From Candidatus Falkowbacteria bacterium RIFOXYC2_FULL_36_12 (GTDB lineage: Bacteria; Patescibacteriota; Patescibacteriia; UBA11705), in assembly GCA_001778235.1 (NCBI GenBank), contig MFGJ01000006.1, forward strand, positions 196,254-240,959: a stretch of 44,706 bases of DNA, in the 5' to 3' direction. The notes beneath the pieces were generated by a model. That model saw only the letters and a program-made list of their open reading frames with translations, had not been told where the DNA came from and made no database searches. The position numbers were made by a program, and so were the translations under genes. This document shows, piece by piece, positions 3,000 to 42,643 of this stretch (positions are counted from its first letter, which is position 1; every line of letters begins with the position of its first letter).

Positions 3000-5447
3000 A
3001 TGAACAAAAAACAAATATTCATCTTGGTAGGATTACTTTGCGTGCTTTTTGTTTTAGTTTTAATTAATTCTGGTGGATTTATAATGTTGGGTGGAGAGGG
3101 TAATTACTTTCTTGATTTTTCAACCGTAAAGGATTTACACCACCACAGTTGGGTAGATTTTAATTCAGGAACTGGCGCGCCTGGTGTATTGTTCAATTTT
3201 GCTGCTTTAAATTTTGATTTTTTCAGCTTACTGCAGATTATTGGTTTAACCAGATTTTGGTTGGGAATAATCTGGGTGTTTTTGATTTACGCCATGCCTT
3301 TTGTGGCTATGTTTGTTTTACTGTTTAAAACATTAAAAATTGAATTCAACTGGTCAATAATTTTATCACTCTTTTACATCTTAACACCTTTTTCTGTGGC
3401 ACATTTTGATGCTCAAATACTCTGGAGCACTCTGCCATTTTTTGTTTTGCCTGCAGTATTTTCAATAATGCATTATTTTTATGAACAAAAATTAAAACTA
3501 TTCATTTTGTTTGGTCTATTTACCTTTATCTTTAGTTTTACCTTTGCCAATATTCCATACTTAGCTGTTTTTCATATTTTTTTAATTTTGTCATTGATTT
3601 TAATCCCGCTGACAAAAAATAAACGAATTTTAATTGGTAACAGTTTATTAATATTTTTATTACTTGAATTAAGTTTTTTTGTTTTCAATTTTTGGTGGTT
3701 TGTGCCGATGATTTTTTCGTCCTTTGCTACTGGCACAAACCTATATAATGATGATTTTGCAGTTAGCTGGGCTAATTCCGCCATTGCCAATGATGCCCTG
3801 ATTAGGATCTTATCGCTAAGAAGTTTGACCAGCTTCACCCATAAACCAACTTCATTTATAGAAGTTTTTTATAACTTTCCGCTAATAAAAATTTTGCTGT
3901 TTGCTCCGGTTATTTACATTGTTTCTTATTTTGCGAGACTAAAAAAAGCCACCAGTAAATTAATTTACCCTTTATTTGCTTTTTTTCTGTTTTTTATTTT
4001 TTTGAATAAGGGCGCTAATGCACCATTTGGTGAGATCTATGTTTTTTTAATCAAATACTTGCCATTTTTCAATGTATTCAAATCTCCGTGGGAAAAATTT
4101 AGCATTTTATTAATTTTTATTATTGTTGTTTTTCTTGCCATTAGCTTGCCACGAGAAAAGAAAAAATGGTTTTTATATGGCTCAATTATTTACATTTCAA
4201 TTATGGCCATGCCATTTTTTCTCATTCAGTTTAATCCAGCATACCAGATTGAAGCTGATAAATATGTGAGCAAGCAGTTTATTGATAAAATTGCCTATTC
4301 GCAATGGAGAAAAATCGTCAATGATGATCAGCAGGATTATCGAATTTTTAGTCTACCTGGATCGTTGAATTACCAAGTTACAATGTTCAGCCATGACAAT
4401 CTGTATTATCGTGGTATGGACCCGCTAGTATTTGCTGTAAATAAATCTTTTATCACAGTTTATGGCAGTAATAAATTTGAAAATATTTATAAAAATCTAA
4501 ACAATGAAAATATTGAGAATATTTTTGACATCCTCGGTGTTGGAAGAATATTATTAAATACTGACATATACCCATCATTTTTGTTTAAGGAGACTCAATC
4601 TTTTGAAGAATTGGATGAAATATTTTCTGCCAAATTTGAAAAATGGAATGACGGACCAATAAGTATGTATTCTTTACCTACCAGACCGATTGTTTACACT
4701 GCAAATTCAATACAGCAAACAGCTTATAATTTCCAGTCATTAACATCGCTTGTTTCTGATAAAAATTTTGATCCCAAAGCGATTTATCTAATGTCCGATA
4801 CTACAACTCAACAAATCAATTTTGTTTTACCAGAAAAAGAGATAAAGACACCAACTATTGAATTCAAAAAAATCAACCCATCAGAATATAAAGTTATTGT
4901 TCACAATGCTTTAGAAAATTTTCCTTTGATTTTGAATAATACATTTGATGAAAAATGGCGGGTTTATAATACGGACATTGATAAATCAGAAAATTTGGAT
5001 ATAGACAGAATAATTATTAACGAAGGAAATAGTGGAGCTGCCAATAGAGAACAAATTCCAATATATATAAAAAATAATGAAATTTCAGAATTAGGGACTG
5101 AAGATCTGGCTGATTTTATTAGCGCCAAGAGAAATAATGCTATTCAGAATGACAACTTGTCAGATGTGAAACTACGAGAACTATTATCTGCAAATCAGAT
5201 ATCGGCTGATAAACATTTTATTGCAAATGGATTTGCAAATTCATGGTGGATTGATTTATCTGAAATAAAACAAGAACAAAAATTTGTAGATAATGGTGAT
5301 AACACAATTGATTTTGAGCTGACTTTATTTTACGAACCAGAAAAACTTTTAATTGCCAGTAAAATTGTCACTGTCGTAGCCATAATAACTGGAGTCATAA
5401 TATTAATATTTATAAGAAAAAAATATGAGTCTAGAACATCGAATTGA
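3000..5447 (+). CDS. large multi-TM membrane protein, GT-C/YfhO/arabinofuranosyltransferase-like
   Basis: 815 aa, many hydrophobic helices, FNVFKSPWEKFSILL motif and a C-terminal extracytoplasmic region. Confidence 0.5.
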   Translation: MNKKQIFILVGLLCVLFVLVLINSGGFIMLGGEGNYFLDFSTVKDLHHHSWVDFNSGTGAPGVLFNFAALNFDFFSLLQIIGLTRFWLGIIWVFLIYAMPFVAMFVLLFKTLKIEFNWSIILSLFYILTPFSVAHFDAQILWSTLPFFVLPAVFSIMHYFYEQKLKLFILFGLFTFIFSFTFANIPYLAVFHIFLILSLILIPLTKNKRILIGNSLLIFLLLELSFFVFNFWWFVPMIFSSFATGTNLYNDDFAVSWANSAIANDALIRILSLRSLTSFTHKPTSFIEVFYNFPLIKILLFAPVIYIVSYFARLKKATSKLIYPLFAFFLFFIFLNKGANAPFGEIYVFLIKYLPFFNVFKSPWEKFSILLIFIIVVFLAISLPREKKKWFLYGSIIYISIMAMPFFLIQFNPAYQIEADKYVSKQFIDKIAYSQWRKIVNDDQQDYRIFSLPGSLNYQVTMFSHDNLYYRGMDPLVFAVNKSFITVYGSNKFENIYKNLNNENIENIFDILGVGRILLNTDIYPSFLFKETQSFEELDEIFSAKFEKWNDGPISMYSLPTRPIVYTANSIQQTAYNFQSLTSLVSDKNFDPKAIYLMSDTTTQQINFVLPEKEIKTPTIEFKKINPSEYKVIVHNALENFPLILNNTFDEKWRVYNTDIDKSENLDIDRIIINEGNSGAANREQIPIYIKNNEISELGTEDLADFISAKRNNAIQNDNLSDVKLRELLSANQISADKHFIANGFANSWWIDLSEIKQEQKFVDNGDNTIDFELTLFYEPEKLLIASKIVTVVAIITGVIILIFIRKKYESRTSN

Positions 5448-7158
5448 TAATGTAAAGAGGATTGGTTTGTTAAAAAAGAAAATTCAGCAAAAAGGCTTTG
5501 TCAGAATAATTGAAACGCATAATGCTATTTCAGGATTGATTGCAAATGACTCCACGGTTGTACTTGATACAGGTGAACAGCGTGAATTTGATGGTTTTTG
5601 GGAAAGCTCTTTGACTGATTCTGCTTCAAAAGGATTTCCAGACATTGAACTTGTAAGTCTGGATTCACGGCTAGAAACTATTTCTCAAATTTTGGAGGTT
5701 ACTGACAAGCCAATGATTGTAGATGGTGACACTGGCGGAGATTTTAACCAATTTGAGTATATGGTAAAAAAGCTTGAGAGAGCTGGAGTCTCAATGGTGA
5801 TAATTGAAGATAAGGTATTCCCAAAAAGAAATAGTTTAGAAGCTGGAACAAGGCAAACCTTGGAAAAGCCAGAAGTTTTTGCCGAAAAAATTAGACGGGG
5901 AATTGAAATTAAATCTGACCCGGATTTTTTAGTGGTTGCCAGGATTGAAAGCTTGATTGCTGGTTTTGGCTTGCAAGATGCGATTGAACGAGCAGAGCTG
6001 TATTTAAAAGCTGGGGCTGATGGTATTATGATACATTCAAAAGATGCTGACCCAAGTCAAATTATTGAATTTGCTAAAAAATTCAAATCTTTCCCGCCTG
6101 AACTGATCAAGGAAAAACTTCTAATTTGTGTTCCGACAACCTATAACTCATTAACCTGCAGTCAGCTCGCTGGATATGGTTTTAATATTATAATTCATGC
6201 CAATCATAATCTTCGGGCAGCGTATAAAGCGATGGAAGATGTTTGCAAACAAATTTTGACCTATGACCGAACAGCAGAAGCTGATGAGATTTGCACCCCG
6301 ATAAAATCAATTTTTGCTAAAGTTGGATTTTTGTCTGTCAAGGAAAAGGATAAACAAGCAGCTCAAAAACTAAAATCAAAACTTAAGGTTGTGATTCCAT
6401 CGGCTGGGGTAAATGAATTGACACGACAACTCGGTAAACCAATTGCCTTGGTTGAAATTAATAACAAGAAACTGATTGAGAGACAACTGGAAAACTTTTA
6501 TAACTGCGGATTGGACAATATCGTGCTTATCCGAGGATTTGGGGCTGAACTGTTCACTTTGGAAAATATTGAATATTTTGATAACCCGGACTTTGAGAAA
6601 ACATTTGTACTAGAATCATTATTCAAAGCCAAAGAAGCGTTGACTGGATCATTTATCTATATTAATTCTGATTTAATTATTAACGAAAGTATCCTACGAA
6701 ACTTAATGACACTGGAAAAAAATCCTGAAGTTGATGTGGCTGTGGTGGTTGATAATTCTTTCCAATACCATAAACACAACATTGATAAAAAACTTGATTT
6801 AGTTAGAACAAATAAAGGATCAAAAATCGACCCAATAAGATTAATCGCCGATAACTTTAGTGAAGATGCAGAATATATTGGTAAAAATATAGATAGTGAT
6901 ATTGCCCATTATGAATTTATTGGCGTGGCTTATTTTTCAGAAAAAGGCACACAGAAGTTGCACCAAATTTATAACCAAGCAAAAACTGCTAATCGGGCTC
7001 TCCATGAATCAAGTAGCTTTGGAATGAACAGTTTTACAGATATATTGCAAGAATTAATAAATACTGGGACCAAAGTAAAAGTTTTGAAAACATATCAAGG
7101 CTGGATGGAAATTCATAACCAAGAGGATCTTGAAATAGCTAAACAAATTTATGCTTAA
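5425..7158 (+). CDS. phosphoenolpyruvate phosphomutase fused to a C-terminal NTase-like domain
   Basis: EDKVFPKRNS matches the EDKx5NS PEP mutase signature; IVDGDTGGDFNQFEYMVKKLERAGVS is typical of the family; C-terminal half has NTase-like LVEINNKKLIERQLENFYNCGLDNIVLIRGF. Confidence 0.92.
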   Translation: MSLEHRIDNVKRIGLLKKKIQQKGFVRIIETHNAISGLIANDSTVVLDTGEQREFDGFWESSLTDSASKGFPDIELVSLDSRLETISQILEVTDKPMIVDGDTGGDFNQFEYMVKKLERAGVSMVIIEDKVFPKRNSLEAGTRQTLEKPEVFAEKIRRGIEIKSDPDFLVVARIESLIAGFGLQDAIERAELYLKAGADGIMIHSKDADPSQIIEFAKKFKSFPPELIKEKLLICVPTTYNSLTCSQLAGYGFNIIIHANHNLRAAYKAMEDVCKQILTYDRTAEADEICTPIKSIFAKVGFLSVKEKDKQAAQKLKSKLKVVIPSAGVNELTRQLGKPIALVEINNKKLIERQLENFYNCGLDNIVLIRGFGAELFTLENIEYFDNPDFEKTFVLESLFKAKEALTGSFIYINSDLIINESILRNLMTLEKNPEVDVAVVVDNSFQYHKHNIDKKLDLVRTNKGSKIDPIRLIADNFSEDAEYIGKNIDSDIAHYEFIGVAYFSEKGTQKLHQIYNQAKTANRALHESSSFGMNSFTDILQELINTGTKVKVLKTYQGWMEIHNQEDLEIAKQIYA

Positions 7159-31615: not shown

Positions 31616-32590
31616 TTATTTCAACTGTGACCCGACAAAATTTGGTTGACCATTGATAAAGTCTTTGACTGCCATTGGTTTTTTGCCTTCGAGTTGAACT
31701 TGTTCCAATTCAAGTGCGCCTTTACCACATTTGACGGCAATAAATGACTTATTTTGCTCGTCCATACAGCTGACAACTGTGCCGACCGGTAAATCTTGAT
31801 ACTTTTCCTGATTTTGACAACTAGAAACTACTTTTGATTTTATAATATTTAATTTTTTGTCATTGAAAGTTGTATACACTCCAACTCTTTCCGCAATTGC
31901 GCGGACAAGATTGTTGATGGCACTAGCTGACATTGACCAGATTACTTTGCCCATACTAGATTCAATTTTTGTACAATAACTTGCCCGATCATCATCCTGC
32001 ATTTCCAAATTTAGCTCATCTGTAATATAAGGAATTATCACATCGTCAATCATGCTTGATGCCATTTCAGACATTTTTGTACTAAGAACAGTAAAATTAT
32101 CAGCTGGATTAATCTCAAGGTATTCTGATTTAATTATGTCACCTGTATCCATGCCAAGATCCATTAGGATAATGGACACGCCGGTTTCTTTATCGCCATT
32201 AATCAAAGCTGTCTGAATAGGTGAAGCACCGCGATATTTTGGCAGGATTGAACCATGGATATTTAGACAACCTTGTTCCGGCAAATTAATTATTTCTGGA
32301 GGCAAAATCTTGCCATAAGCCACGACAATAATTATGTCTGGATTTATTTTTCTTAATTGTTCAAAAAATGAATCATTTCGTTTCAGAAAATTTGGCTGAC
32401 TGATGGCCAAACCACGATTTTCAGCTTCAGCCTTGACTGGAGGCGGAGTCATAATCATTTTTCTGCCAGATGGTTTATCTGGAGAGGTGACTACCAATTT
32501 TACATCATAGTTGTCTGCAATTTTTTTAAATATCGGCACTGCAAATTCACTGGTGCCAAAAAAGACTATCTTAATATCTTTTTTTTCCAT
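31616..32590 (-). CDS. fmt: methionyl-tRNA formyltransferase
   Basis: VFFGTSEFAVPIFKKI; INPDIIIVVAYGKILP; NIHGSILPKYRGASPIQTALINGDKETGVSIILMDLGMDTGDI. Confidence 0.97.
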   Translation of the reverse strand: MEKKDIKIVFFGTSEFAVPIFKKIADNYDVKLVVTSPDKPSGRKMIMTPPPVKAEAENRGLAISQPNFLKRNDSFFEQLRKINPDIIIVVAYGKILPPEIINLPEQGCLNIHGSILPKYRGASPIQTALINGDKETGVSIILMDLGMDTGDIIKSEYLEINPADNFTVLSTKMSEMASSMIDDVIIPYITDELNLEMQDDDRASYCTKIESSMGKVIWSMSASAINNLVRAIAERVGVYTTFNDKKLNIIKSKVVSSCQNQEKYQDLPVGTVVSCMDEQNKSFIAVKCGKGALELEQVQLEGKKPMAVKDFINGQPNFVGSQLK

Positions 32591-32593
32591 AGG

Positions 32594-33097
32594 TTAATTC
32601 GATTTCTGTAATTTATAAAGGTTGGCGAGAATTTCTTCTCCGCTGGTAATTTTTTTGACTTTATCAATAAATAAAACACCATTTAAATGATCATTTTCGT
32701 GCTGAATTACTCGAGCCAGCAAACCTTTGGCTCGTAAGGTGAAAGAATCACCATTTCGATCCAAAGCTTTTATCAATAATCTTTTTGACCGCTTAACAAT
32801 CCCAAAAACTTCAGGCACAGACAAGCAACCTTCTTCGTCTTCCACTTTTAGCCATGATTTACTAATAATCTTTGGGTTAACAAAAACTTTTGCACCATCT
32901 TCAGTGGCAATGACAAAAATCTGTAATTGTTTATCAACTTGTGTTGAGGCTAAACCAATGCCATCTTTTTCGCGCATGGTTTGTATTAGATCAATAATAA
33001 ACTTCTGCATGTCTTCAGATTGCAGTTCTTTTGGCTGAACCTCACGAGCTTTTAGCCGGAGATTCTTATTTGGAAGTTTTATTATTTCTAGTAGCAT
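32594..33097 (-). CDS. def: peptide deformylase
   Basis: DGIGLASTQVD; EEGCLSVPE; RVIQHENDHLNGVLFID (QHExDH variant with N). Confidence 0.94.
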   Translation of the reverse strand: MLLEIIKLPNKNLRLKAREVQPKELQSEDMQKFIIDLIQTMREKDGIGLASTQVDKQLQIFVIATEDGAKVFVNPKIISKSWLKVEDEEGCLSVPEVFGIVKRSKRLLIKALDRNGDSFTLRAKGLLARVIQHENDHLNGVLFIDKVKKITSGEEILANLYKLQKSN

Positions 33098-33119
33098 AGC
33101 TTAATGTTAGTGGTGACAA

Positions 33120-33560
33120 ATGGGAGATGCTGAAAACAGTACCCGGAGATCCTGAAACAAGTTCAGGATGACGAGTGGTGTGTAGTCCCGTCACTCTGAA
33201 CTTGTTTCAGGGTCTCCTGAATTTACATTAAAGTAAGGAATGAAAAATTGATTTGATTACAGAATTTAATTTGAATTTTGTAGAATTATACCCTGAAACA
33301 AGTTCAGGGTGACAAGTCGGGGTAAAGAATTATTCCCTGAAATCCATCTTCGTTAAAACTTCCGACTACGCTCTTTTGGGAGATTCGACGGACAAGTCGA
33401 TGGACAAGTAAATTCAGAGCCTGCCCTGAATTTAGTTCAGGGGTGACAAGTGGGAGATCCTGAAACAAGTTCAGGATGACGAGTGCAGGGGTTAGAATGA
33501 CGAGTGGTGTGTGGTCCCGTCACTCTGAACTTGTTTCAGAGTCTCCTGAATTGACATTAA
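33120..33560. repeat. REP-like palindrome cluster between def and priA
   Basis: Palindromes at 33151-33167, 33191-33213, 33291-33309, 33424-33442, 33459-33475, 33520-33542; long direct repeat tgtgt(a/g)gtcccgtcactctgaacttgtttcag.gtctcctgaatt.acatta at 33180 and 33508. Confidence 0.9.
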
Positions 33561-33569
33561 TAATACATA

Positions 33570-35453
33570 TTATACTACATTCAATGGTGTTTTGTCAATG
33601 TATGCATCGGTCGAAACTCCATTAAGTATTTCAGCTTCATATTTGATATTTCCTGGCATAAACTTGAGTAAAATATAATATCTGATTCGTCCCCGAACAT
33701 GATTTTTGTAAAACTTGTAGGGTTTTGAACAGCTAACCTTATATTTCAAACATATTGGAGCGATTTCATTATAAATCAGGGAAATATTGTGCTCTGCTAC
33801 TGATTGTTTTTCATCTTGAACAAAGATTTGAATCAATTGACTAAATGGGGGATATGAATATCTTTGCCGTGATTTTAACTCGTTGACATAATATTGCTGG
33901 TAGCTGTGACCCAGCTTTCTAATAGCTAAATTGTCTCTAAAGTTAGTCTGCAGAAAAATTGGTTCTGTATGATACAGGCGATATTTTGCAATCAAATCCT
34001 GAATTTGATCATAGGCTCGTTCGGTCGTATTAAAATCTGGATTATAAAAAATACTATCAATATGGACTAAAGCCATGAAATCATACTTTTCTATTATATC
34101 AATGGTTAGTGATCCAGCGGTAGTGATTAATATTGTTGGGGTACGATTAGCTTCAGTGGCAATGGATACTTTGGGAAATAGTTTGGTTATTTCTTCGACC
34201 AATTGTTCTTGGCCATAACCAAGGGCAACAAAATCATGCCCAGTACATTTTTGACAAGTAACAGAGTCGGAACTTTGCTTGCAATAAAAACAGTACAATT
34301 TTGATTGTGATAATGTGTAGGGGAGACTACACTTGGGGCAAGTAGGAATCTGACCACAATCACGACAGGTCGAAAAAGAAGCATAGCCACGCTTATTAAT
34401 GACGAGCAGAACTCTAAATTTGCTTACAAGCTTTGTTTTTATTTCATTTATTAATTTCTCTGACAAATAGGTAAAAGCTAAACGACGAACATCTTTCAGA
34501 TCAATTATTTTTAATTTACTGTTTGGCCACTGCTCACCAAGAGAAATTAATTGCCACTTTTCTTCACGCGCGCGATAAAAGTCAGCCACTTTTGGAGCTG
34601 GGCTGGAAAAAATCAGTTGACTAGAGTAAATTTTCTGAATTTGCCTGGCAACTTCAAGAGCATTAAACCTAGGTTCTTGATCCCAATTGATATGATCATC
34701 TGAATGGATATCATCTACGAACATTATTTTCAAATTGCAAAATGGAGCAAATAGAGCAGACCGAGTGCCAATAATTATATTTTTTTTATTATCTTTTATA
34801 CTTTGATAAATTTGATTGTAGCGAGATTTACTAGTAAAAAGTTGGCTATCAACTACAGCGATTGTATCCTGAAACTTTACTGGGATAAAACGCAGAAATT
34901 GTTGAATACTATTTTTATGTGGGAAAATAAAAGCAATTTGTGACAATTTCAGATCAACTTGCTCAATCAAATCAACCATCAGCTCAAATTTGAATTTTGT
35001 ATCATAACTGATTGATAAATAATTTTTCTTGTCGCCCAAAATTTTTTTTGTTAGCTGATGACTTTGGTCAGAACATTTTATGGTTCTATCCCCAGAAATA
35101 ACTATTGGCAAAGTTATAGTAACTTTGTTCTTCAGAGGCTCTGGGAGCATCATCCTGACGGTGGCTGTAAGTGAATAATGATAATAGTTGGCAAACCATT
35201 TAGCCAAAGCCAATTGTTCAGCTTTAATCAATGGGACAGATGATTCAATTGAAGTAATTTGTTTCAAGTTTTCAAATTCAGAATTGTCCGACAACTCAAG
35301 AACAACACCAAATACTTGCCCTGCACGAAAGGGAATTTTTACTAGACTGCCGAGCCTAATTACTGGTTGCAGAGACTCTGGGACTTTGTAATCAAAACAA
35401 TCTATCTGTCTTGGCAGTTTGCGGAAAAGCATGATTTTGGCAATGTTTTTCAT
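33570..35453 (-). CDS. priA: PriA-like primosomal protein N', predicted ATPase/helicase-inactive
   Basis: N-terminal PriA region (FDYKVPESLQPVIRLGSLVKIPFRAGQVFGVVLEL), eight-Cys zinc region, C-terminal YPPFSQLIQI; upstream of def-fmt. Confidence 0.85.
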   Translation of the reverse strand: MKNIAKIMLFRKLPRQIDCFDYKVPESLQPVIRLGSLVKIPFRAGQVFGVVLELSDNSEFENLKQITSIESSVPLIKAEQLALAKWFANYYHYSLTATVRMMLPEPLKNKVTITLPIVISGDRTIKCSDQSHQLTKKILGDKKNYLSISYDTKFKFELMVDLIEQVDLKLSQIAFIFPHKNSIQQFLRFIPVKFQDTIAVVDSQLFTSKSRYNQIYQSIKDNKKNIIIGTRSALFAPFCNLKIMFVDDIHSDDHINWDQEPRFNALEVARQIQKIYSSQLIFSSPAPKVADFYRAREEKWQLISLGEQWPNSKLKIIDLKDVRRLAFTYLSEKLINEIKTKLVSKFRVLLVINKRGYASFSTCRDCGQIPTCPKCSLPYTLSQSKLYCFYCKQSSDSVTCQKCTGHDFVALGYGQEQLVEEITKLFPKVSIATEANRTPTILITTAGSLTIDIIEKYDFMALVHIDSIFYNPDFNTTERAYDQIQDLIAKYRLYHTEPIFLQTNFRDNLAIRKLGHSYQQYYVNELKSRQRYSYPPFSQLIQIFVQDEKQSVAEHNISLIYNEIAPICLKYKVSCSKPYKFYKNHVRGRIRYYILLKFMPGNIKYEAEILNGVSTDAYIDKTPLNVV

Positions 35454-35559: not shown

Positions 35560-36348
35560 CTATTTTAATTTAAATTCAGCCACCAGATGCCCAATACCAA
35601 AAGGTGACTCATAATTCAATACCTGAAAATCATAATTCATGTTTTTTATAACACCGAGCATGATTAGAATACTGCGCAGTCCGCATTCAGCCGCGTCTTC
35701 AACCATGGCCTTGTCTAAATTTAGAATACTTTCAACCTTTTTCTGCTTGAGAAGCTGGATTATTTTTTTATCAAATTCTTTGGCATTGGGTGAGAAACCA
35801 GCTGGTGCTTTTGGTGTCAGTTTGTGGCTAAGTTCTGCTGAAGCAATAATAGCTACTCGCTTGTCTTCACGATAAATTGCTTCTTTCAAGGCTTCACCAA
35901 ACTTTAGATGTTGTTCATAGCTCAAAAATGAATAATTTATTGGCACAATCTTGAAGTTTTTGTAGTTTTCAGCCAAGTAAATCAAAGGAACGGCTGTGGC
36001 ATAATCAATATCAGTAAGTGATTTCAAAGACAAAGACATAGAACTTTCAACTTGCTCCTTGAAACGGTTGATAAAACCAATATCACCTTTGTAAACTTGA
36101 TTGGTTTGAAAATCTCCAAACTCACCAAAATTAACTTTGTATTCTGGCAAAGTATTGATACTAAAAGCTTCAGGATAAATATCACCATGAGAAGTTAGAA
36201 CAATCACTAAATCTGGTCTAGTTGATTCAAAATCCTGACGCAAAATTTTTATTGCTTCAATTGTTTTTTGTAATTTTTTAATATTTTCTTTGCCAATACT
36301 CGGAATGAGAAGAGGCGAATGAGGCAATATAGCTGAAAATACGAGCAT
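35560..36348 (-). CDS. MEMO/LigB-like class III extradiol dioxygenase family (AmmeMemoRadiSam system protein B-like)
   Basis: AILPHSPLLIPSIG; LVIVLTSHGDIYPEAFSIN; VAIIASAELSHKLTPKAP. Confidence 0.75.
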   Translation of the reverse strand: MLVFSAILPHSPLLIPSIGKENIKKLQKTIEAIKILRQDFESTRPDLVIVLTSHGDIYPEAFSINTLPEYKVNFGEFGDFQTNQVYKGDIGFINRFKEQVESSMSLSLKSLTDIDYATAVPLIYLAENYKNFKIVPINYSFLSYEQHLKFGEALKEAIYREDKRVAIIASAELSHKLTPKAPAGFSPNAKEFDKKIIQLLKQKKVESILNLDKAMVEDAAECGLRSILIMLGVIKNMNYDFQVLNYESPFGIGHLVAEFKLK

Positions 36349-36396: not shown

Positions 36397-37764
36397 TTAT
36401 TCCTTGAATGAAAGATCCAGGGCTTGGCCAAGTGGCAGTACAGCTAAAGAATTTTCAGAAACAACTTTGATTTCAGTCCATTTGAATCCAAGTCTTTCAA
36501 AAACCTCTGCAGTTAAAATTGGTTTTTTCTGTCCACCAGAAACCAGATATACTAAAGGATTTTGGCTAGATTTGAGTAATTCTCCTTCACGAAACTTAAT
36601 TATATCACCTTGGTCGTATTTTTCAAGCTCTTCGGGTGAAACAGGTTGAATTGGGTATTTAGGATAATTTATGGTCATTATCTCTTGGGCAATCAAAGGG
36701 TGACTAACGCCATTTTGGACAAAGAAAATTGCACCAGTCTGATTGTTTTGGAGCAGAGCTCCCATGGGATAAGTGCTCTTGATTGTGATTTCTTCACCAA
36801 GATTATAATCAACTAACTCATCATTTTTTACGCTAACAACTTCTAACATATTGAAACCAAGGTTTCGGAATGTTTCCATTGAGTCAATATGTTTTATCTC
36901 ATCATTTACCAGTAAATAAATTGCACCATCTTCATTTAGCAACAATGAATAATTGGCAAATCTAATGGCTGAACCAAGTTCATATTTTTCAAGTTCAGAC
37001 TGATCAACAAACAATATTTTATTGGGATCAAATCTGGAAATCAGTGAAGACATACTGGCAAAGGGTTTTTTCTCGCCGTATTGAATCAAGTAAACGGTTG
37101 GATTGCTATAACTACGAAGCAGTGAACCGTCAGGATAATATTGTTTGAACCATCTCTGCCAGATTTTCCAAAACAAATAATTGCCGTGAATGTGTGGAGT
37201 GTAGCTGTACAAATTGGCTGTTGCCTGGGAACTTGGAGTTACCTCTGTGCCGTCTATATTATATTTTTGACCAACTTGTTTGAAAGCGTTTGGGTGATCA
37301 GAATACCAACGAATCCGCTCCGTCGCCTTTGTTACTTGATTTTCAAATCCTCTAAACTTTTGAATATCTGGATCGTCCATACTACAACTATCACAAACAG
37401 CATAACCCATGGCCCAGTCATATTGTTTTTGGCTTGGTGACAAGTCTTCAACAATGCTTTGTTCTTTCTGGAGCATGACCAAAATAAATTTTGGATTTAT
37501 CTTGGAGTTTTGGGCTGAAGTAAAAATAACTTCTGCCGCTGTTTTGGTAAGCCCGCTAGCATCAATCATGACATAACTTGCCAGACTGGAGTTTTTTAGT
37601 TCAAGAAATTTCTGGATATCTGTCAAATTCATGGAATTAAAATCATAGAGCTCCAGGTCACTCAAGATAAAATTTTGGTTGAACTCTGCTGCCTGTAGCT
37701 GACTGAAGGGGAACAAAGTACAAAGAAAAGCCACAATTAGAATTGATATTTTTATTTTTTTCAT
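36397..37764 (-). CDS. secreted lysozyme-like-domain protein with four C-terminal repeats
   Basis: Signal peptide; INPKFILVMLQKEQSIV; four units of the type LL.....VYLV..G.KKPI...E.F...GF.......V...EL..Y.LG. Confidence 0.7.
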   Translation of the reverse strand: MKKIKISILIVAFLCTLFPFSQLQAAEFNQNFILSDLELYDFNSMNLTDIQKFLELKNSSLASYVMIDASGLTKTAAEVIFTSAQNSKINPKFILVMLQKEQSIVEDLSPSQKQYDWAMGYAVCDSCSMDDPDIQKFRGFENQVTKATERIRWYSDHPNAFKQVGQKYNIDGTEVTPSSQATANLYSYTPHIHGNYLFWKIWQRWFKQYYPDGSLLRSYSNPTVYLIQYGEKKPFASMSSLISRFDPNKILFVDQSELEKYELGSAIRFANYSLLLNEDGAIYLLVNDEIKHIDSMETFRNLGFNMLEVVSVKNDELVDYNLGEEITIKSTYPMGALLQNNQTGAIFFVQNGVSHPLIAQEIMTINYPKYPIQPVSPEELEKYDQGDIIKFREGELLKSSQNPLVYLVSGGQKKPILTAEVFERLGFKWTEIKVVSENSLAVLPLGQALDLSFKE

Positions 37765-41118: not shown

Positions 41119-41337
41119 TTAGGGTACAAGGCGTTGTAGTTGCAGGACCAGCGGAATCCCGCCGATACTTCTAACTGCCTCTTCATGAATCACCCTACGG
41201 GCAGTCTGACGGTTAGCTTCTTTGCCGTCAGGTGAGAGCTCGAGCCGAAAGCTCGAACATCGTTGGAAACTCCTGCCTCTGGGGCAGTGCTGGAACAACC
41301 TGCAGGCCAGGCACGCCAAATATTCTTCGTGAAGCAT
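41119..41337 (-). CDS. hypothetical small protein (orphan cassette), GC-elevated and hairpin-rich
   Basis: SD GGAGAGGAGGT 5 nt before ATG, promoter and terminator present. Confidence 0.55.
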   Translation of the reverse strand: MLHEEYLACLACRLFQHCPRGRSFQRCSSFRLELSPDGKEANRQTARRVIHEEAVRSIGGIPLVLQLQRLVP

Positions 41338-41396
41338 GACAGACCTCCTCTCCGTCGCTTCACGGACAAGGACAACTGCTTTGTCTTTCTATTTAA

Positions 41397-41425
41397 ATAA
41401 TAACATTAAAAATGCTATAATTCAA
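41397..41425 (-). promoter_or_regulatory. sigma70 promoter TTGAAT-17-TATTAT
   Basis: Minus strand TTGAAT at 41425-41420, TATTAT at 41402-41397. Confidence 0.55.
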
Positions 41426-41440
41426 ATAACTTTAGATTAT

Positions 41441-42643
41441 ATGAATACATTTTCTGACAACAATTATAATCAGACTGACAATATTTTGATTCTTGGGGTT
41501 CAAATTGCAAACTTGAGCGAAGAACAGATTATGCGTCATATTGAAAAAATTTTACCCAATGATGTTTTCAATATAATATTCACTCCAAATCCTGAAATTT
41601 GCTTAAAAGCCGAGGCTGATTATGAGTACAAGCAAATACTGAATCAGGCTGACCTTAATATCCCTGATGGTGTTGGTTTGAAACTTGGCGCTGAAATTCT
41701 TGGTCAATCATTAATGCACAGGATTACTGGCGTAGATCTGACCAATAGAATTCTTGAGTATTGCAACAACAGTAATAAAAAATTCAAAATCTATATTTTG
41801 AATCATTATAATTCCTTGTCCAGTTTAAGTTTGATTGAAAAAACCTTAAAAGAAAAATATCCGAACATCTTGATTACAGGTACACAACAAAAATTCAGTG
41901 AGATAGAATCTGTAGCCAATGATATTCTGAATCAAAAACCTGATATTATTTTTTCAACTTATGGCGCACCAGAGCAGGAAAAGCAGATAGTTGAATTGGC
42001 CAATTCAATTGAAGGACCAAAATTAGGAATTGGTGTTGGGGGAACATTTGATTTTATTACTGGCAAAGCAACACGAGCCCCAAAATGGTGGAGAGACCTA
42101 GGAATTGAATGGTTTTATCGATTAATAAAACAACCACAAAGGTTTAGCCGAATTACAGATGCAACCATAAAATTTCCTTTGACCTGTTATAAATGGAAGA
42201 AAAGAATTGACAATATATATAGAAATAATGTTGTGGGAGTAATCGTAAAAGCTGATCAAATCCTACTGCAAAACAATCGACGATTTCCCGGAGACCATTG
42301 GCAGTTGCCCCAAGGTGGGGTTGATGATGGTGAGACTCCAGAACAAGCGGTTATTCGTGAAATATCCGAAGAATTAGGAGTTGATCCAAGTTATTTATTA
42401 ATAGACAGGAAACTGCCTGAAACACATACCTACACTTGGCCGAAATGGGCTCAACTCCAAAAAGGCTACAAAGGCCAAAGGCAAGAAATTTTTATTGTAA
42501 ATTTTTCTGGCGATAATTCTGTTTTTCATTTCAAAGATAGCGAAGAAGTTGAAGATATTAAATGGGTAAAAAAGTCAGACTTGAAACAAACAATGTTTCA
42601 CAAAAGAAGGGGACTGGCAGATATTGTTTTGAAATATTTGTAG
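41441..42643 (+). CDS. WecG/TagA/CpsF (GT26) glycosyltransferase fused to C-terminal NUDIX hydrolase
   Basis: GVGLKLGAEILG...RITGVDL, GVGGTFDFITGKATRAPKWWRDLGIEWFYRL, then Nudix box GGVDDGETPEQAVIREISEELGV; likely start 41441, not 41336. Confidence 0.92.
   Translation: MNTFSDNNYNQTDNILILGVQIANLSEEQIMRHIEKILPNDVFNIIFTPNPEICLKAEADYEYKQILNQADLNIPDGVGLKLGAEILGQSLMHRITGVDLTNRILEYCNNSNKKFKIYILNHYNSLSSLSLIEKTLKEKYPNILITGTQQKFSEIESVANDILNQKPDIIFSTYGAPEQEKQIVELANSIEGPKLGIGVGGTFDFITGKATRAPKWWRDLGIEWFYRLIKQPQRFSRITDATIKFPLTCYKWKKRIDNIYRNNVVGVIVKADQILLQNNRRFPGDHWQLPQGGVDDGETPEQAVIREISEELGVDPSYLLIDRKLPETHTYTWPKWAQLQKGYKGQRQEIFIVNFSGDNSVFHFKDSEEVEDIKWVKKSDLKQTMFHKRRGLADIVLKYL

Follow-up and report, generated by a model that had tools for sequence, protein, structure and literature searches.

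Actinobacterial PriA (NCBIfam PRK14873), which lacks the helicase motifs, is a further PriA pseudohelicase beside that of Deinococcus, and DciA (DUF721) is the DnaB loader in most bacteria. Nearly all bacteria conserve the PriA helicase, yet Escherichia coli survives without it, which is a puzzle. The ATPase-dead K230A variant of E. coli PriA loads DnaB in vitro, PriA–PriB restart in vivo does not need the ATPase, and an aromatic-rich loop after motif II is wedged into the fork junction (PMC10175261). Deinococcus PriA, without ATPase, binds forks with a K_d of ~109 nM (52 nM for E. coli PriA) and contacts DnaB (PMC4504706). For Caulobacter, DciA has been suggested to act with PriA (PMC9825169). 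Our search of the openly accessible literature found no paper on PriA in Patescibacteria/CPR.

We describe a PriA encoded in a stretch of 44,706 nucleotides (the window) from Candidatus Falkowbacteria bacterium RIFOXYC2_FULL_36_12. The source genome and its relatives (Falkowbacteria/Uhrbacteria) belong to a class that we take to be ABY1, referred to below as the class. Coordinates are those of the window, on the minus strand unless marked otherwise.

Identity, motifs and fold of the window PriA

The open reading frame at 33570..35453 starts with ATG, has zero internal stops and encodes 627 amino acids. It scores 272 bits against NCBIfam PRK05580.1-3 and matches PDB PriA sequences with an E-value of 4e-40; its TIGR00595 score of 215 bits lies slightly below the curated cut-off of 230. 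The PriA architecture is present, running from the 3'-DNA-binding domain (3'BD) through the helicase lobes and the Cys-rich region to the C-terminal domain. The 3'BD (aa 1-107, 35133..35453; Pfam PF17764, E 1.7e-21) keeps the FDY motif (D21, Y22) and K64, which correspond to E. coli columns D17, Y18 and K61. The C-terminal domain (~aa 515-627, 33570..33911) matches Pfam PriA_C at a sub-threshold E-value of 0.001 and keeps YPP and the terminal ID..P. In the 3'-end pocket, residue 17 is Thr or Ser in most active Patescibacteria PriAs and Asp in E. coli and the pseudohelicase class.

Downstream of priA lie def (peptide deformylase, 32594..33097; Pfam 3.9e-46) and fmt (methionyl-tRNA formyltransferase, 31616..32590; Pfam 1.7e-39), both assignments agreeing with synteny; upstream is a gene for a LigB/Memo-family protein (35560..36348; Pfam 8.4e-38). 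def adjoins priA in 39 of 41 class loci and the LigB gene does so in 32. The same LigB-priA-def-fmt order occurs at an active-type PriA locus (L076), and this common arrangement supports orthology, as the first-pass annotation had argued from def and fmt. True PriA descent follows from the profile scores, the fold, the gene order and the presence of one copy per genome. A second PriA was sought throughout the source genome (1.09 Mb, 99.8% complete, 8 contigs, MAG-type) and none was found beyond the single match. Judged by its sequence, the open reading frame is a true single-copy PriA orthologue, predicted to have no working ATP site.

Other features of the window were recorded alongside. A gene at 36397-37764 encodes a protein of 455 residues that is predicted to be secreted and matches no Pfam family; in 28 of 41 class loci it is kept on the upstream side of LigB-priA. 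The priA-def gap (33098-33569), like the segment 26222-26387, is dense in a 17-bp palindrome-like repeat, CCTGAACTTGTTTCAGG, arranged in inverted pairs, and a block of 67 bp is duplicated in the gap. Identical copies of the repeat number 37 in the genome, split 29 to 8 between the two strands and frequently paired at short distance; the element is REP-like. A gene at 5425-7158 on the plus strand combines a PEP-mutase domain with an NTP-transferase-like domain and lies near a B12-binding radical-SAM gene (616-2151); these are possible phosphonate or surface-glycan modification genes. At 41336-42643 on the plus strand a WecG/TagA-type glycosyltransferase is fused to a NUDIX domain.

Alignment to E. 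coli PriA and relatives finds motifs Q, I (Walker A), Ia, III, V and VI erased. The motif I position, placed by alignment and by the model described below, reads SYDTKFKFE (aa 149-157, 34983..35009) in place of GVTGSGKTE, and motif III reads SSPAP in place of GSATP. Motif V has become TTAGSLTI (aa 444-451, 34101..34124; GTQMLAKG in active PriA) and motif VI DLIAKYRL (aa 486-493, 33975..33998; QVAGRAGR). Motif II (Walker B) is degenerate, with DDIHS (aa 247-251, 34701..34715) aligned to DEEHD. The pattern [AG]xxxxGK[ST] is absent from the whole of the window PriA and of 63 Walker-less relatives, and is present in 28 of 29 active-type Patescibacteria PriAs. The protein thus departs from an active helicase at Walker A, Walker B and motifs III, V and VI and, at the level of sequence, is a PriA homologue with a non-functional ATP site, a pseudohelicase of the Deinococcus type. 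These alignments leave no doubt that, at the sequence level, the ATP site is gone.

The first-pass annotation had reported the replacement of GxTGSGKT, the change of DEEH to DDIH and the degenerate motif VI, and all three are borne out. Its description of a protein stripped of helicase motifs goes too far in one respect, since motifs Ib (GTRSALF) and IV (INKRG) are kept. Alignment to active PriA, which it had proposed as a check, was carried out and found the ATP motifs lost, with no P-loop elsewhere in the protein. It was also right that eight cysteines remain: all eight of these predicted metal (zinc) ligands are present (C363-C403, 34245..34367), and none of them varies among the 42 class members. 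The loop that follows motif II (aa 252-267, DDHINWDQEPRFNALE, 34653..34700, assigned by alignment) would meet the fork junction; its Pro is invariant among class members and its Arg is present in 39 of 42.

The AlphaFold2 model, built on 11 sequences, has the PriA fold (mean pLDDT 85, pTM 0.83). The first nine Foldseek matches are all PriA; by TM the best is E. coli PriA on a fork (8fak, 0.77), and by E-value it is the winged-helix-deleted 6dcr. At the motif I position the model has a strand (145-149) followed by a helix (152-165), without the P-loop glycines. The winged-helix domain, which lies between the 3'BD and lobe 1, is missing: 44 residues separate the 3'BD from motif I, compared with 122 in E. 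coli and a median of 49 in active Patescibacteria PriAs. The earlier statement that the N- and C-terminal domains remain is therefore correct for the 3'BD and the C-terminal domain but not for the winged helix. Most active Patescibacteria PriAs (L067-L096) are also without a winged-helix domain of the E. coli type, so its absence is not diagnostic in this phylum and is not tied to motor loss.

Walker-less PriA across Patescibacteria

A recognisable PriA orthologue was found in 44 of 55 relatives. Every class PriA examined at full length (42 of 42, the window included) has no Walker A and all eight cysteines, and none of 22 full-length Walker-less genes from outside the class has a P-loop. Walker A is thus lost in 64 of 64 Walker-less orthologues examined full-length, and none has a P-loop elsewhere. 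The survey that the first-pass annotation had recommended consequently reveals the same loss throughout the class members examined and beyond them; other Patescibacteria carry a PriA with a normal Walker A.

Across 381 Patescibacteria genomes TIGR00595 returns two score groups. The high group (114 genomes) scores 430-640 bits and aligns from Walker A onward; the low group (68 genomes) scores at most 332 bits and aligns mostly from position 10 or beyond, two of its members (G088 and G219) apparently being genes truncated by contig ends. The 199 genomes with no match at E 1e-18 are a mixture of absence and strong divergence. The exact pattern GVTGSGKTE was found in 45 of the 381 genomes and in 0 of 34 class members. 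Loss of Walker A is old and class-wide, reaches other Patescibacteria and is not peculiar to one genome.

The GTDB family f113 is mixed: one member (L116, genome G272) is Walker-less, and G155, G313 and others are active-type. This mixture likely reflects at least one further loss, or transfer. In a PriA tree with the motif columns masked and long-branched rows, the active PriAs of Patescibacteria group together with support. A tree rooted on E. coli implied regain of the helicase; in the AU test, a tree placing E. coli together with all active PriAs has a higher likelihood than the free search (p-AU 0.85). One ancient split between active and Walker-less PriA is allowed, the long branches leaving the number of losses unsettled.

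The pattern of retention was examined over 114 reference columns, each at least 90% conserved across 29 active Patescibacteria PriAs. In the class, 34 of the 114 stay conserved at 80% or more, and 34 fall to 30% or less. Towards the N-terminus and up to the junction loop the kept columns are Y18, Y88, G302 and R304 of motif Ib, and K328 and P333 in the loop after motif II; the others are N426/G429, the eight cysteines, G488/G490, Q597/T598, R625 with the P631/P632 stretch, and D726/P729 at the C-terminus. The lost columns, Q203, most of motif I, T258-P259-Q260, G355/A357/T358, Q540/K544/G545 and Q580-R587, lie nearly all within motifs Q, I, Ia, III, V and VI. The elements predicted to touch the fork are retained and those predicted to use ATP are lost. 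Of the SSB-tail pocket, the window PriA retains W83 and Y87, both common in the class; the basic residues of the pocket are not alignable.

Association with DciA and a proposed role

The source genome encodes a DciA of 97 aa (L141:4911-5204), and 43 of the 55 relatives also have one. Both genes were found in 40 genomes, PriA only in 4, DciA only in 3 and neither in 8 (Fisher p 5e-5). One genome (G029) has a PriA fragment at a contig end and was counted as PriA-positive in a corrected table of 41/4/2/8 (Fisher p 1.6e-5). Six genomes (G014, G022, G025, G028, G040 and G051) have an intact def-fmt pair with no adjoining PriA open reading frame, and in five of these six loci LigB is a few hundred bases away. 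Of two further genomes without priA, one (G038) has LigB abutting fmt and the other (G037) has an intervening 303-aa open reading frame with no PriA match. The eight priA-less families or genomes also have no detectable DciA. RecG is kept in all eight (its matches are split in G037, G025 and G051, which were scored present), so genes for fork repair have not been lost across the board.

On an rpoB tree the eight genomes that lack both genes lie dispersed (7 changes, compared with a mean of 7.6 after shuffling), and three sister pairs, G014/G039, G022/G041 and G028/G036, differ in both priA and DciA. Several independent co-losses are likely, on a tree that omits G023 and is weakly resolved. The pattern is broken by four genomes with PriA and no DciA (G005, G018, G034, G049) and by two with the reverse (G043, G053). 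The association extends across the phylum (p 8e-13 overall; p 2e-5 for pseudohelicase versus none), these values being uncorrected for ancestry. Detectable DciA occurs in only 47% of the low-scoring PriA genomes phylum-wide; some absences may be missed detections because DciA is short and divergent.

We propose that the window PriA is probably a pseudohelicase that serves as an ATP-independent platform for fork recognition and, with DciA, hands DnaB to the fork; we infer this function from sequence and by analogy. PriA would bind abandoned forks and D-loops, with the 3'BD and junction loop sitting on the fork and the zinc region and C-terminal domain surrounding single-stranded DNA. It would open no duplex itself, the lagging arm included, and would recruit or position DnaB, offering a docking surface for DciA-bound DnaB. 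DciA, in place of DnaC, PriB and DnaT, would deliver DnaB onto the single-stranded lagging strand. Any unwinding that exposes this strand may be done by another enzyme (RecG is intact here) or may be needless on forks whose lagging arm is already single-stranded. The first-pass annotation had envisaged binding of DNA structures or loading of DnaB without ATPase activity, and this is the best-supported reading: the putative fork-contact elements are conserved, K230A and K230R E. coli PriA still assemble primosomes, Deinococcus provides a precedent, and genomes that have lost priA lack DciA as well in most cases.

A wider and more tentative proposal, which we hold possible but somewhat short of an even chance, is that the class and several other Patescibacteria lineages share a two-part loader independent of ATP use by PriA, in which a motor-dead PriA would recognise the fork and DciA would load DnaB. 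The two parts would be inherited and lost jointly, and some families would have abandoned the pathway and kept RecG.

A repurposed PriA, binding branched DNA for fork protection or marking, recombination or oriC initiation and not for DnaB reloading, is unlikely but deserves real weight. In its favour, the class has conserved residues of its own (FTYxS and VPDYWxID, seen in the order); however, absence of the gene is shared with the DnaB loader DciA and not with RecG, and the Deinococcus precedent binds DnaB. Decay of a non-functional gene heading for loss is very improbable. priA does evolve fast, a counterpoint to the proposed role, and appears dispensable because several class families have lost it. 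Yet its reading frame stays open over the full length in more than 60 diverse genomes, with eight invariant cysteines, and retention is selective by element and not random. Close pseudohelicase pairs have dN of ~0.19-0.25 and saturated dS of 1.8-3.0, similar to active pairs, and neither dN/dS near 1 nor frequent stops or frameshifts were seen between species. The pseudohelicase gene is under purifying selection.

Still harder to credit is a cryptic ATPase, in which K155 and the DD of motif II would form a diverged nucleotide site that still works. K155 does fall on the Walker-A lysine position, 25 of 42 class members and 17 of 22 Walker-less PriAs from outside the class have Lys or Arg in this column, and D320 is Asp in 24 of 42. 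Nothing else of the P-loop survives, however: its glycines and the Thr/Ser after the Lys have disappeared, as have motif III, the arginine fingers of motif VI and K544/G545 of motif V; the two nearest relatives have no lysine at this position (NHDQEKNNQ and NHDPNKNDQ), and no compensating conserved motif has taken their place. An artefact of frameshift, mis-assembly or a wrongly named gene, with an active PriA elsewhere, has a negligible chance even in a MAG-type genome of 8 contigs, given the single genome-wide match, the same state in 41 other class genomes from independent assemblies and the normal P-loops of RecG and UvrB in the source genome, which argue against poor sequence quality as the cause.

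Comparison with described PriA proteins

A natural set of PriA proteins predicted to be motor-less and fork-gripping would separate the two functions of PriA by evolution and define the minimal residues for fork recognition and DnaB delivery. The data point to DciA as the partner, in line with an earlier suggestion (PMC9825169). For Patescibacteria, mostly uncultured and reduced, this offers a testable restart pathway, together with some natural genomes that are without the pathway entirely.

The nearest orthologues are the active Patescibacteria PriAs (L067-L096), which share the layout without a winged helix, the junction loop (consensus KQxDQNPRY) and, in part, the gene order (L076), but have all helicase motifs intact. 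E. coli and Klebsiella PriA (8fak, 6dgd, 6dcr, 4nl4) share domain order and fold (TM 0.72-0.77), with the 3'BD, zinc region, junction loop and C-terminal domain in common; they differ in having an active ATPase, 3'-5' helicase activity, a winged-helix domain and the partners PriB, DnaT and DnaC.

Among proteins without a motor, D. radiodurans PriA is likewise a PriA orthologue whose ATPase and helicase loss is predicted from motif loss, and it binds single-stranded DNA as well as forks and contacts DnaB (PMC4504706). PriA of Deinococcus-Thermus, however, keeps a recognisable P-loop in which Lys is replaced by Arg, whereas the window PriA has six motifs erased, and the winged-helix domain missing from the window PriA is a further difference from Deinococcus. 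Actinobacterial PriA also has a degenerate helicase core, keeps the Cys region and occurs in organisms that use DciA. The window protein reaches 134 bits at best on PRK14873 and 272 on PRK05580.1-3, and by this comparison of model scores alone it is not close to the actinobacterial lineage. PriA pseudohelicases are thus already a known kind, which the present locus extends by a deeper erosion, a spread across an entire class of Patescibacteria and a loss shared with DciA.
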